This document shows positions 8,309 to 34,710 of a DNA stretch of 34,827 nt, one piece after another. The stretch comes from Sphingorhabdus sp. (GTDB lineage Bacteria > Pseudomonadota > Alphaproteobacteria > Sphingomonadales > Sphingomonadaceae): positions 6,255 to 41,081 of the forward strand of contig JADMKQ010000039.1 of assembly GCA_015478735.1 (NCBI GenBank), given 5' to 3'. A program made the position numbers and the translations under genes. Within the stretch, counting starts at the first letter, position 1. Every line of letters begins with the position of its first letter. Below the pieces are notes generated by a model. The model was not told the origin of the DNA and did no database searches. It saw nothing but the letters and a program-made list of their open reading frames with translations.

Positions 8309-8821
8309 CTAAGCCGCTTTCTCGCCAGAAGTCAGCTCCAGTGACGGCGCTTTCGCGGATACATCGAGCGTGTTCTTGTTCAGATGCGGTGTCCGGTTGC
8401 TCTTATGCTTGAAGCGACCGTCAACCTGGGCACCCTGTTCGATCTTGACGTTTTCATAAGATACATCGCCGCCGATACGGGCGCTGGAATTGATGACCAG
8501 ATCGCCTGCCTCGATAGAACCCTCGACCGATCCGGACAGGTTGGCATTATCGGCGATGATGGAGCCTTGAATCTTGCTCGACGGGCCTTGCACCAGTGAC
8601 TGGCATTTAATGTCGCCAATGACTTCACCGTCAATATGCAGATCGACTTTCGCGTCGATATTGCCGGTGATTACGATGCCATCGCCAATGACGGAGAAGC
8701 TCGGCTGGTTGTTGCTATGGTTGTTTCTAGCCACGACGGGAGCCTGTTCTGCCGGTGCGCTCTTGGGCACTGGTGGTGGCGTCGGTTCGCTCTCTGGCGA
8801 GGGTTTGAACTTCGAGAACAT
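8309..8821 (-). CDS. Bactofilin family cytoskeletal protein
   Basis: FSVIGDGIVITGNIDAKVDLHIDGEVIGDIKCQSLVQGPSSKIQGSIIADNANLSGSVEGSIEAGDLVINSSARIGGDVSYENVKIEQGAQVDGRFKH: bactofilin beta-helix repeats. Confidence 0.93.
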   Translation of the reverse strand: MFSKFKPSPESEPTPPPVPKSAPAEQAPVVARNNHSNNQPSFSVIGDGIVITGNIDAKVDLHIDGEVIGDIKCQSLVQGPSSKIQGSIIADNANLSGSVEGSIEAGDLVINSSARIGGDVSYENVKIEQGAQVDGRFKHKSNRTPHLNKNTLDVSAKAPSLELTSGEKAA

Positions 8822-9959
8822 CTGTATTCTCCTTCAGAAAAGGGAGAGGGTTTATCGCCGCTCCATTTAACCGCACTTCAAAATGAAGATGCGTGCCGGT
8901 TGAACGGCCCGTGCTTCCCATTGCCCCCACTTGTATGCCCCTCTTTACTTTTTGACCAGCTTTGACCTGAATCCCGGAAAGATGAGCATAACGCGTCATC
9001 AGTCCGTTACCATGGGTAATTTCCACGGTTTTGCCATAACCGGATTTCCATCCAGCATGGGTAATAGTGCCGCGCGCGGCCGACAATACCGGCTGCCCGC
9101 TGCGCCCTTTGAAATCAATGCCGCTATGCATCGCGCCGCTGCCGTTGAAAGGATCTCTGCGATAGCCGAAACTGCTCGTCATCATGGCCATATCGGGTGT
9201 TCCGGTTGGCATGGCAGACGGAATGGCAAGCAGGATGCGTTCGACATGATCCATCTGCAACAATGCATCGTTCAGCCGTTTCAGCGTCGGGTGCAACTGT
9301 TTCTCACCATCGGTAAACAGCGGAATATAGGGACCACCAGCGGCTTTGCCCGATTGGGGGGAGAGAATCGAAGGGTTAAGCCCGAAATCGCGAATCGCTG
9401 CTTCGGCGCGGGCAGTGCGGGCAAGGGCAGCGCGGGTCAGTTTGTCGGCAAAGCTGATCTGGCGCGATTCAAGCTGGGCCAGAATAGCAGCTTCCGGAAC
9501 CGCAGCGCTGAGCTTTTTGGCATCGAGCGAAATCTTGCTGCCGGTTTCGGAAAGGGGAGCAGCGCCTTTGATAAGCTCTCCGCCGTTCAGGCCTTCTTCG
9601 CCGATAAACTGCTGGGTAATCTGTTCCATCGCTTCCTGCCGCCGGATCAGATCTTTGGCGAGGCCGTCAATCGAATCCTTGTAAGCGGCAATCTCGCTCT
9701 GGCCGCTATTTACTTCGGCTTCCTTCTTGGCAAGCGCCATCCGTTCGCCGGACGCGGTCAAGGTGCTGACGGTCATCACCAGTGTCGCCAACAGCCAGAT
9801 CGCAATCACAGCGCCGACAGCCAGTGCGACGCGTTTTTGCAGCTTGGCCGAAATGGTCAGGAAACGGACCTGTCCATTGGCGCGCATGAAAAACTCGCGG
9901 TCCGTGAACATACGGTCCACGCGCGCGGAAAATCCGCTCTTCAAATTTTGGTTGTGCAT
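8727..9959 (-). CDS. Membrane-anchored LytM/M23 peptidoglycan endopeptidase
   Basis: N-terminal TM segment (VALAVGAVIAIWLLATLVMTV), coiled coil, then HSGIDFKG...YGKTVEITHGNGLMTRYAHLS...GTHLHFEVRLNG with intact HxxxD and HxH zinc ligands. Confidence 0.93.
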   Translation of the reverse strand: MHNQNLKSGFSARVDRMFTDREFFMRANGQVRFLTISAKLQKRVALAVGAVIAIWLLATLVMTVSTLTASGERMALAKKEAEVNSGQSEIAAYKDSIDGLAKDLIRRQEAMEQITQQFIGEEGLNGGELIKGAAPLSETGSKISLDAKKLSAAVPEAAILAQLESRQISFADKLTRAALARTARAEAAIRDFGLNPSILSPQSGKAAGGPYIPLFTDGEKQLHPTLKRLNDALLQMDHVERILLAIPSAMPTGTPDMAMMTSSFGYRRDPFNGSGAMHSGIDFKGRSGQPVLSAARGTITHAGWKSGYGKTVEITHGNGLMTRYAHLSGIQVKAGQKVKRGIQVGAMGSTGRSTGTHLHFEVRLNGAAINPLPFLKENTDVLEVQTLARERTDATTSAQERTGRTGSRRG

Positions 9960-10213
9960 ACCCGAAACTCTAAACTAATCCCCAAAGCGCGGTTAGCAGA
10001 GGGTCGCCGATGGCGCGAATCATCAGGGCCGGACTCGTGACGAATCGAAACAGAGATCAGATGAGTTGCGGGAAAGGATGTAAAATCTACGCATATTAAG
10101 ACGGATTTCCGAGTCGTTTGTGCGATTTGTCACTTTTGATGAAATAGTTTTGTCCATAGGACGCAAAGACTTTTTTGCTTATCGGCTGGCAATAGCCATG
10201 CTAGCAAGCAGGC

Positions 10214-11467
10214 ATGACTGAACATCAAAAACTTGTAACCGACATGGGCCAACGCGCCCGCGCCGCTTTTGCGGTTTTATCCAATGTAACGGACGAACAG
10301 AAAGCCCGCGCCCTTAATGCTGCTGCGGCAAAGCTGCGTTCCGACGAAGCAGAAATCCTTGCCGCCAATGCGGCCGATATGGAAAGGAGCCGCGCCAACG
10401 GGCTCAGTGATGCGATGCTGGACCGGCTGATGATCGACAGCGAACGGCTTGAAGGGATTGCCTCGGCGATTGAACAGGTAGCGGCTTTGCCGGATCCGGT
10501 CGGAGCGGTAATCGACCGGAATGAACGCCCCAATGGTCTTGTCATGGAACGGGTGCGCGTGCCACTTGGCGTGATCGGGATCATCTATGAAAGCCGGCCC
10601 AATGTCACGGCGGATGCAGCGGCTTTGGGCCTGCGCTCCGGCAATGCGGTCATCCTGCGCGGCGGGTCAGAGGCGATTGAAAGCAACCGCGCGATTCACA
10701 AGGCGATGACAGACGGCATTGTGTCAGAAGGTCTACCTGAAGACGCGATCCAACTGGTGCAGACAACAGACCGCGCCGCAGTCGGAGAGATGCTGAAAGC
10801 GGCTGGCCTCATTGACATCATCATACCGCGCGGCGGAAAGTCACTGGTCGCGCGGGTGCAGCAAGAAGCGCGGGTTCCCGTGCTCGCTCATCTTGACGGG
10901 ATCAACCACACTTATATCGACAAGACAGCGGATCAGGAAAAAGCGGTCGCCATCGCAGTCAATGCCAAGATGCGGCGCACCGGGGTTTGCGGAGCGATGG
11001 AAACATTGCTGATCGATCAGGATTACCCGGCACCTGCCGCGCTGCTCGGCGCATTGCTGGATGCCGGATGCGAAGTGCGCGGCGACGATGCTGTCATGGA
11101 ACTGGATTCGCGGACGGTTTCGGCTGACAGTCAGGACTGGGATACCGAATATCTCGCTCCGATCGTTTCGGTACGAATGGTTGGCGGACTGGATGATGCA
11201 CTGGATCATATTGCCGAGCACAGCTCACATCATACCGATGTCGTGGTGGCGGAAGATGAAGCAGTCGCCAACCGCTTCATCCGGAGCGCGGACAGTGCGA
11301 TCGTGATGTGGAATGCGTCCAGCCAGTTTGCCGACGGCGGTGAATTCGGCCTTGGCGCAGAGATCGGCATATCTACGGGCCGCCTTCATGCCCGTGGGCC
11401 GGTCGCGCTGGAAGGGCTGACCACCTATAAATGGGTGGTGCGCGGAACCGGTCAGGTCCGGCCTTGA
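10214..11467 (+). CDS. proA: Glutamate-5-semialdehyde dehydrogenase (gamma-glutamyl phosphate reductase)
   Basis: RVPLGVIGIIYESRPNVTADAAALGLRSGNAVILRGGSEAI; IIPRGGKSLV; MRRTGVCGAMETLLID; EFGLGAEIGISTGRLHARGPVALEGLTTYKWVVRGTGQVRP. Confidence 0.98.
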   Translation: MTEHQKLVTDMGQRARAAFAVLSNVTDEQKARALNAAAAKLRSDEAEILAANAADMERSRANGLSDAMLDRLMIDSERLEGIASAIEQVAALPDPVGAVIDRNERPNGLVMERVRVPLGVIGIIYESRPNVTADAAALGLRSGNAVILRGGSEAIESNRAIHKAMTDGIVSEGLPEDAIQLVQTTDRAAVGEMLKAAGLIDIIIPRGGKSLVARVQQEARVPVLAHLDGINHTYIDKTADQEKAVAIAVNAKMRRTGVCGAMETLLIDQDYPAPAALLGALLDAGCEVRGDDAVMELDSRTVSADSQDWDTEYLAPIVSVRMVGGLDDALDHIAEHSSHHTDVVVAEDEAVANRFIRSADSAIVMWNASSQFADGGEFGLGAEIGISTGRLHARGPVALEGLTTYKWVVRGTGQVRP

Positions 11468-11477
11468 GCATCAGTTA

Positions 11478-11960
11478 GTGAGGACGACAGGCCTTCTTGG
11501 CGGGTCGTTCAATCCCGCGCACGGCGCACATCGTTCGATCAGTCTGTTTGCCATACAGGAACTGGCGCTCGACGAGATGTGGTGGCTGGTGTCACCGGGA
11601 AACCCGCTAAAGGCACAGGCCAGTGACATGGCCCCGCTTTCCGCGCGGTTGGCTTCAGCGCAGAAAATGGCACGACGTAGCGCGATCAAGGCAACGGCTA
11701 TCGAACAGACTCTGGGCACGCGATATACTTATGATACGCTGTGTGCGCTCATCCGGCGCTATCCGAAACGACAATTTATCTGGATCATGGGAGCGGATAA
11801 TCTGGCGCAATTCCACCGTTGGAAGGATTGGCGGAAAATTGCACGTTTATTGCCGATTGCAGTTATCGCGCGTCCCGGCTATGATGACGATGCTTTTGCG
11901 GCACCCGCAATGGCATGGCTCCGGCGCTCCGTCCGGCCTGCGAGCCAGCGGATGAACTAG
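11478..11960 (+). CDS. nadD: Nicotinate-nucleotide adenylyltransferase, N-terminal part ending at an in-frame TAG
   Basis: GTG start; TGLLGGSFNPAHGAHRSIS (GGSFNPxHxGH-type motif), DEMWWLVSPGNPLK, RYTYDTLCALI, FIWIMGADNLAQFHRWKDW. Stops at TAG 11958-11960 before the expected C-terminus. Confidence 0.9.
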   Translation: MRTTGLLGGSFNPAHGAHRSISLFAIQELALDEMWWLVSPGNPLKAQASDMAPLSARLASAQKMARRSAIKATAIEQTLGTRYTYDTLCALIRRYPKRQFIWIMGADNLAQFHRWKDWRKIARLLPIAVIARPGYDDDAFAAPAMAWLRRSVRPASQRMN

Positions 11961-12119
11961 ACTAACTGGAGTACGCCAGCGCTGACATTCTTGCGCTATC
12001 GTCCCGACCCCCGCTCAGCCACCGCGATCCGGATGGCCCGGCCCCATTGGCACAAACAATATGCAGATCGCTGTGTCCGCGACACCGTGACGCATAAATT
12101 GGTTTGCCAGACATATTGA
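11961..12119 (+). pseudogene. nadD: In-frame continuation of nadD after the amber codon (C-terminal segment)
   Basis: Same frame after the TAG: TNWSTPALTFLRYRPDPRSATAIRMARPHWHKQYADRCVRDTVTHKLVCQTY* (TGA 12117-12119). RSATAIR fits the NadD (I/V)SxTxxR motif. Confidence 0.8.
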
Positions 12120-12130
12120 TAGGATTTGAA

Positions 12131-12556
12131 TTGACGAAACCGAAAAGCAAAGTGCTGAAATCCGCTACTTCCAAGGAAGGAAAAGCCGAATCAGAGGCTC
12201 TTTATGCTCTCGTGATGAAATCGCTCGACGATGATCAGGCACAGAATATTGTTTCCATCCCGCTGGAAGGGAAAAGCAATATCGCCGATTATATGGTCAT
12301 CGCCGAAGGGCGTTCGACCCGTCAGGTCGCATCTATGGCGCAGAAAATGGCTGAGCATATCAAGCAAGCCGGCGGCGAGGCGCGAATCGAAGGACTCGCC
12401 AATGCCGACTGGGTATTGATTGATGCAGGCGATGTGATTGTTCACATTTTCCGTCCCGAAGTACGCAGCTTTTACAATCTGGAACGCATGTGGGCTGTGG
12501 GAGAGGAAGAAGAAGCAGAAGCAGAGGCTTCCGAAGCAGAGGCTTCCGAAGCCTGA
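12131..12556 (+). CDS. rsfS: Ribosomal silencing factor RsfS
   Basis: AQNIVSIPLEGKSNIADYMVIAEGRSTRQVASMAQKMAEHIK...EGLANADWVLIDAGDVIVHIFRPEVRSFYNLERMW. ORF opens with TTG at 12104; TTG 12131 preceded by AGGA (12121-12124) looks likelier. Confidence 0.93.
   Translation: MTKPKSKVLKSATSKEGKAESEALYALVMKSLDDDQAQNIVSIPLEGKSNIADYMVIAEGRSTRQVASMAQKMAEHIKQAGGEARIEGLANADWVLIDAGDVIVHIFRPEVRSFYNLERMWAVGEEEEAEAEASEAEASEA
12521..12550 (+). repeat. Two tandem copies of the 15-bp unit GCAGAGGCTTCCGAA inside the rsfS 3' end
   Basis: 12521-12535 and 12536-12550 are identical; encode (AEASE)x2. Confidence 0.85.
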
Positions 12557-12574
12557 TCCGGCGGTTTATCGTTC

Positions 12575-12997
12575 ATGAGGCTCCATATTGTCGCTCGCGG
12601 GAAAATCGGCCGCAGCCCCGAACAGGAGCTGGTTGACCGGTATATCAAGCGGATCAACTGGGATGTGAAGCTGAGCGAACTGCCTGAACAGGGCGGGAAA
12701 ACACCGAAAATAAGCGACCAGACAAAAATCATCGCGCTTGATGAGACCGGGGAAAACTGGAGCAGCAAGGCCTTTGCCGATATTTTAAGCAACTGGCGCG
12801 ATAGCGGCGTTCGCGAAGCTCGTTTTTTAATCGGGGCCGCCGATGGCCTGACCAGCGAAGAGCGGGGCAGCGCGGACCATTTCTTTTCATTCGGAAAAGC
12901 CACCTGGCCGCATTTAATGGCCCGGGCAATGCTGGCCGAACAACTGTTCCGGGCGACTGCCATTATCGCAAACCACCCTTATCACCGTGAAGGCTAG
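12575..12997 (+). CDS. rlmH: 23S rRNA (pseudouridine1915-N3)-methyltransferase RlmH
   Basis: MRLHIVARGKIGRSPEQELVDRYIKRI; IALDETGENWSSKAFA; FLIGAADGLTSEE; WPHLMARAMLAEQLFRATAIIANHPYHREG (SPOUT signature). Confidence 0.97.
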   Translation: MRLHIVARGKIGRSPEQELVDRYIKRINWDVKLSELPEQGGKTPKISDQTKIIALDETGENWSSKAFADILSNWRDSGVREARFLIGAADGLTSEERGSADHFFSFGKATWPHLMARAMLAEQLFRATAIIANHPYHREG

Positions 12998-13000
12998 GGC

Positions 13001-14200
13001 GTGATCCGCTGGCTATTCATCATACCCGTTCTTCTGGTGACAGGTGTGTTTTTCGCTGCCTCCCTGCCAGCACAAAGCAGCGACCCGTTGCTGGCCGACG
13101 AACAGCAGGCTTTGATTTCCGCGCGCGAGCAATCGGAAAGGGCGCAGCAGCGCAGCATTGCCCTTCGCTATCAGGCAGAGGCCGCAACCAATGACGCTGA
13201 CAAAGCCCGCATAGAAACCGCTGCCATGGCGGCGCGCATAGAAGCGGCAGAGGCCGACATCCGTGCAGCACGGGCACGCATAGCGATTGTAGCCCGACTG
13301 CAGGACAGTCAACGCGCGCGGCTGGCCGAAAAGCAAAGGCCGGTGGTGCGCCTGACCGCCGCTTTGCAGATGATGACGCGTAAGCCGACGGCCCTTGCCA
13401 TAGTCGAACCACGCTCGTTGGATGAGCTTATCTATATCCGCTCGATCATGTCCACGGTCCTACCCGAAATTGAACGTCGCACAGCCAATCTACGCAGCGA
13501 AGTTAACGAAGGTGAAAAGCTGCGTGTCCAGTCGGCGCGGGCAGTAGCTTCTCTTGATGAAAGCCAGCAGCGTTTGACACAGCGGCGGAAACAGCTTGCT
13601 TATCTGCAATCCGGTGGGACGTCCGGCTTGCAATTCCCCACGACTTTGGGACAGGATCGTGCCCTGGCACTGGGCGAAGAAGCGCGTGATTTGCTCGACC
13701 TGATGGGCCAGATCCGCGAAAGCGGCGCGGTTCGCGAATCGCTGGCGGCGCTGGATGGTCCGATGCTACGTCCGAATCCGGACAATATGAATCAAAACGG
13801 AGTTCAGGCGGCTCGCTTCCCCGCGCGGCGCAACATCGCCACGGCCTATCTTTTGCCTGTGACGGGTGAGCTTGTTACCGGCCTGGGTGAGCGGTCGGAC
13901 AGCGGCTATCGCTCTCGTGGATTAACCATCACCGCCGAACCGAACGCACAAATTGTCGCGCCAGCCGAGGGCCGGATTGTCTTTGCCGGTCCTTATAATG
14001 GTTATGATAATATCCTGATTATCGAACATGATGCGGACTGGACCAGCCTGATTACCAATATGGCAGCGATCAATGTAGCGGTCGGCGATATTGTGAAGCA
14101 GGGCGCACCCATTGGCCGTTCAGCGGACCGCAACACCGATATCACGGTCGAGCTGCGGCGTCATGGCCGTCCGATTGATATTGCTGCGCTGATTTATTGA
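13001..14200 (+). CDS. EnvC-like murein hydrolase activator (coiled coil plus degenerate LytM domain)
   Basis: Signal peptide, long coiled coil, C-terminal LytM-like fold (LPVTGELVTGLGERSDSGYRSRGLTITAEPNAQIVAPAEGRIVFAGPYNGYDNILIIEHD); canonical zinc ligands not apparent. Confidence 0.82.
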   Translation: MIRWLFIIPVLLVTGVFFAASLPAQSSDPLLADEQQALISAREQSERAQQRSIALRYQAEAATNDADKARIETAAMAARIEAAEADIRAARARIAIVARLQDSQRARLAEKQRPVVRLTAALQMMTRKPTALAIVEPRSLDELIYIRSIMSTVLPEIERRTANLRSEVNEGEKLRVQSARAVASLDESQQRLTQRRKQLAYLQSGGTSGLQFPTTLGQDRALALGEEARDLLDLMGQIRESGAVRESLAALDGPMLRPNPDNMNQNGVQAARFPARRNIATAYLLPVTGELVTGLGERSDSGYRSRGLTITAEPNAQIVAPAEGRIVFAGPYNGYDNILIIEHDADWTSLITNMAAINVAVGDIVKQGAPIGRSADRNTDITVELRRHGRPIDIAALIY

Positions 14201-16745: not shown

Positions 16746-16774
16746 TTCATTCGGGTTATGGCAAAGGATAATAT

Positions 16775-34623: not shown

Positions 34624-34710
34624 GCCCAGATGGCGGAATTGGTAGACGCGCTAGCTTCAGGTGCTAGTATTCGCAAGGATGTGGAGGTTCGAGTCCTCTT
34701 CTGGGCACCA
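34624..34710 (+). tRNA. tRNA-Leu (CAG anticodon), CCA encoded
   Basis: GCCCAGA...TCTGGGC-A-CCA acceptor stem, CTAGC-TTCAGGT-GCTAG anticodon arm, variable arm, GGTTCGAGTCC T-arm. Confidence 0.96.

Follow-up and report, generated by a model that had tools for sequence, protein, structure and literature searches.

A single in-frame amber codon in the nadD gene of a Sphingorhabdus draft genome, a probable base error or minority allele located in a segment of reduced synonymous change

The nadD gene of this Sphingorhabdus draft genome is interrupted by one in-frame amber codon, probably through a base-level error or because a minority allele entered the consensus of this fragmented assembly. The base at this position would then be wrong or drawn from a minority of the population, the TAG would not be carried by the functional population, and the cell would make a normal 213-residue NadD. 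Judged from its sequence, the gene at 11478-12119 is an ordinary single nadD. The amber codon lies within a segment of the gene in which synonymous change is reduced across the genus, and this segment possibly has a second function of its own. The features are collected in Table 1, with positions counted in the window, that is, the whole stretch of 34,827 nucleotides that was analysed.

Table 1. Position of the amber codon, the two parts of the nadD frame and the adjacent features in the window.
Feature	Coordinates	Strand	Remarks
proA, upstream neighbour	10214..11467	+	intact
nadD 5' part	11478..11960	+	GTG 11478 to TAG 11958-11960, 160 codons; nicotinate-nucleotide adenylyltransferase; NF000843 251.5 bits
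nadD codons 100-200, reduced synonymous change across the genus	11775..12077		strongest in codons 126-200; contains the TAG
Amber codon TAG, codon 161	11958..11960	+	the other 29 copies read in the genus have TGG (Trp)
nadD frame continuation with RSATAIR motif	11961..12119	+	ends at TGA 12117-12119
rsfS-like gene, downstream neighbour	12104..12556	+	intact; true start may be slightly inside the ORF

The TAG is the sole interruption of the nadD frame and separates its two conserved motifs, the N-terminal GGSFNPAHGAH being located 5' of the stop and RSATAIR 3' of it. The frame reads MN, the stop and then TNWSTPALTFLRYRPDPRSATAIRMARPHWHKQY, and continues via TNWSTPALTFLRYRPDPRSATAIR to the TGA, giving 213 codons with the TAG included. 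Against the NCBIfam model NF000843 the read-through frame scores 285.8 bits (cut-off 240), and the truncated frame stops matching at model position 167 of 212, so that positions 168-210 are lost. The frame is not a product of chance, because other members of the genus have full-length matches to an intact version of it. An AlphaFold2 model of the read-through protein (pLDDT 87, pTM 0.86) matches solved NadD structures with a best E value of 1.9e-10, and the PDB matches listed are all NadD enzymes. The split of the frame before RSATAIR had been described in a sequence-only reading of the window, which also proposed that a single G-to-A change from TGG would account for the stop; both descriptions hold, TGG being the codon in 29 of 29 other genus copies.

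The search within the genus yielded 33 genomes, Parasphingorhabdus and Sphingorhabdus species included, each with one nadD match; two of these matches are fragments, both in less complete assemblies. The 29 copies used here are those that can be read at the position of the amber codon, the own copy being excluded. In 59 outgroup copies from other genera the same column holds arginine in 26 and tryptophan in 17, and tryptophan is thus not universal in the family. No outgroup copy ends at this position, and comparison with the NadD of relatives, a check named in the sequence-only reading, brought up no homologue among those read that naturally terminates there. The gene was found in 401 of 401 genomes of the order, and among the best matches listed the nadD stops of G161, G288 and L074 are all at the very C-terminus. 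A near-complete genome of a relative (G017, L008) carries a different TAG in nadD, a few codons short of where the gene usually ends; it shortens the protein only slightly and is unrelated to the stop described here.

When the window is compared with two relatives, nadD is the only interrupted gene, and rlmH, which also lies downstream of it, is intact. The block at 8310-14187 is inverted relative to its flanks in comparison with relatives G031 and G032, and contains a bactofilin-like gene, an M23 peptidase, proA, nadD, rsfS, rlmH and a second peptidase. A tRNA-Leu (CAG) gene is located near the end of the window (34624-34710).

The segment of nadD that contains the stop is unusual at its synonymous sites. 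Across the genus, codon choice differs in 22% of the same-residue pairs in codons 100-200, against 49-55% in proA, nadD codons 1-96, rlmH and envC. In two-genome comparisons of 27 genes of the window, the top four of 1,152 sliding windows are all located in this segment, with values of 0.87-0.92 against a mean of 0.54 (sd 0.084). Both clades of the genus show the effect, and other genera show it much less or not at all. Distances in the segment are as closely correlated with those of the adjacent genes as the latter are among themselves, which fits a slower rate of change and not a recent exchange. A milder suppression of synonymous change (0.37 against about 0.5) is present in an early 60-codon stretch of rsfS (12137-12316).

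Several explanations of the segment were examined and set aside. An overlapping gene was rejected, as each alternative frame contains stops in most genomes and none stays open in all of them. A stable RNA fold was rejected too, the folding energies being equal to those of codon-preserving shuffles (mean z near 0), and the consensus structure shows few two-sided changes. Repeat copies offer no explanation, the segment occurring at one place per genome. Searches of the segment found no matching Rfam family, no promoter-like sites and no GANTC sites. By these tests the segment is neither an overlapping gene nor a stably folded RNA. From the pattern of codon choice it may be suggested, tentatively, that 11775-12077 carries a second, nucleotide-level function in the genus, in the form of a DNA site or an RNA sequence that fixes the synonymous positions.

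At the level of the protein, the own nadD copy shows no decay apart from the stop. It differs from the other genus members compared at 1 of 125 codons whose amino acid is invariant among them, and this one is the TAG; the same test on its neighbours gives 5 of 218 for proA, 3 of 81 for rsfS and 7 of 85 for envC. Before the stop, dN/dS is 0.04-0.10. With no additional change at about 270 non-synonymous sites, the time without constraint amounts, as a rough bound, to under about 0.01 neutral substitutions per site, where the synonymous differences to the relatives, for scale, are 0.5-0.6. The stop is therefore either not real or extremely young. The sequence-only reading had left three options, namely an error, a recent nonsense mutation, and suppression or readthrough; the first two stand in this narrowed form, and the third finds no support.

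The draft assembly consists of 243 contigs with a completeness of 97.1%, and its fragmentation suggests that it is probably a metagenome bin. Spurious internal stops are documented in draft assemblies, mainly where coverage or read quality is low (PMC11017572). The quality of this assembly was examined by a protein comparison of 169 matched genes (487,785 bases, 55,444 codons) with relative G031, which replaced a coding-potential scan for internal stops in which the nadD TAG was not flagged. In these genes nadD is the only one with a genuine internal stop, and no frameshifts were found. Apparent stops at window position 16769 and in L165, L256 and L262 were rejected by eye, since they lie in poorly aligned sequence that apparently precedes the true starts. 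Since the nadD stop is isolated in an otherwise clean set of genes, it cannot be put down to a high error rate, and any error would be an isolated one. The cleanness of the assembly also speaks for a genuine nonsense mutation of very recent date that is fixed in the strain sampled; this reading ranks second to an error or minority allele and is on balance unlikely. Single G-to-A transitions arise commonly, and the truncated protein would keep its N-terminal catalytic motifs. Such a strain would have to survive by residual activity of the 160-residue fragment, by low natural readthrough or by an unseen source of NAD, or a failing clone would have been sampled. Against these routes, the model places a strand (169-173) and helices (181-195) of the C-terminal fold (residues 169-195) after the stop, together with S180, A181, R185, P189 and W191, residues that do not vary among 42 proteins, and from this model the fragment is unlikely to be a sound enzyme. 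Furthermore, nadD is essential in E. coli (PMC1249556), and no other NaMN/NMN adenylyltransferase was found in this draft, where the remaining PF01467 matches are CoaD, RibF and PanC. The second nadD or nadM that the sequence-only reading had proposed to look for was thus not found in the draft, which is 97% complete. Both nadA and nadE are present and intact, and the NAD synthesis pathway is therefore probably in use. Finally, with the 124 other invariant codons all unchanged, constraint could have been lost only extremely recently.

It is very improbable that the TAG is real but read through to give full-length NadD, whether by a suppressor tRNA or because of a leaky context. The tail does stay conserved and in frame, but synonymous sites in the same stretch are constrained too, and because of this nucleotide-level constraint its conservation alone is unusable as an argument for readthrough. 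The suppressor tRNA considered in the sequence-only reading did not appear: none of the 38 tRNA places found has a CUA anticodon, and the one tRNA cut by a contig end is a tRNA-Asp by its anticodon. About 3% of the genome is missing, and a suppressor could sit in this gap. However, release factor RF1 is intact (prfA match 503.7 bits), TAG serves as an ordinary stop that ends 10 of 28 genes of the window, no other genuine internal TAG occurs in the 55,444 codons compared with G031, and none of the 29 genus copies has a stop at the amber position. A true split gene, with the tail made as a protein of its own that complements the N-terminal fragment, is scarcely credible. The open frame of the tail speaks for it, and nothing more. 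No start codon lies close to the stop; the earliest one in frame would be TTG at 11991, which is without a purine-rich upstream site and would leave 42 residues, and separate translation of 11961-12119 is therefore unlikely. Nor is any homologue read split at the amber position.

The case is a caution against taking a nonsense codon as a sign of gene loss or recoding, where it interrupts an essential single-copy gene in a draft genome, until the reads have been inspected. If the stop were real and fixed, it would provide a natural test of the amount of NadD that a cell needs. The segment of reduced synonymous change, if confirmed, would point to an unrecognised element in a housekeeping gene, and would matter more than the stop codon.

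The gene shares with NadD (NF000843, Pfam PF01467) the GGSFNPAH motif, the full-length frame, the RSATAIR motif, which in this gene lies beyond the stop, and the neighbours proA and rsfS, and differs in the one in-frame TAG at codon 161. Amber suppression and the recoding of UAG are known from other systems, such as the supE- and supF-type suppressor tRNAs and the pyrrolysine systems. An in-frame UAG in a conserved protein is common to these and to the present gene, but here the suppressor tRNA was not found, RF1 is present and UAG is an ordinary stop. Although the 169 genes compared show no excess of internal stops or frameshifts, the gene resembles the spurious pseudogenes that arise from base miscalls (PMC11017572) in its single internal stop, in being otherwise perfect and in its origin from a fragmented draft.
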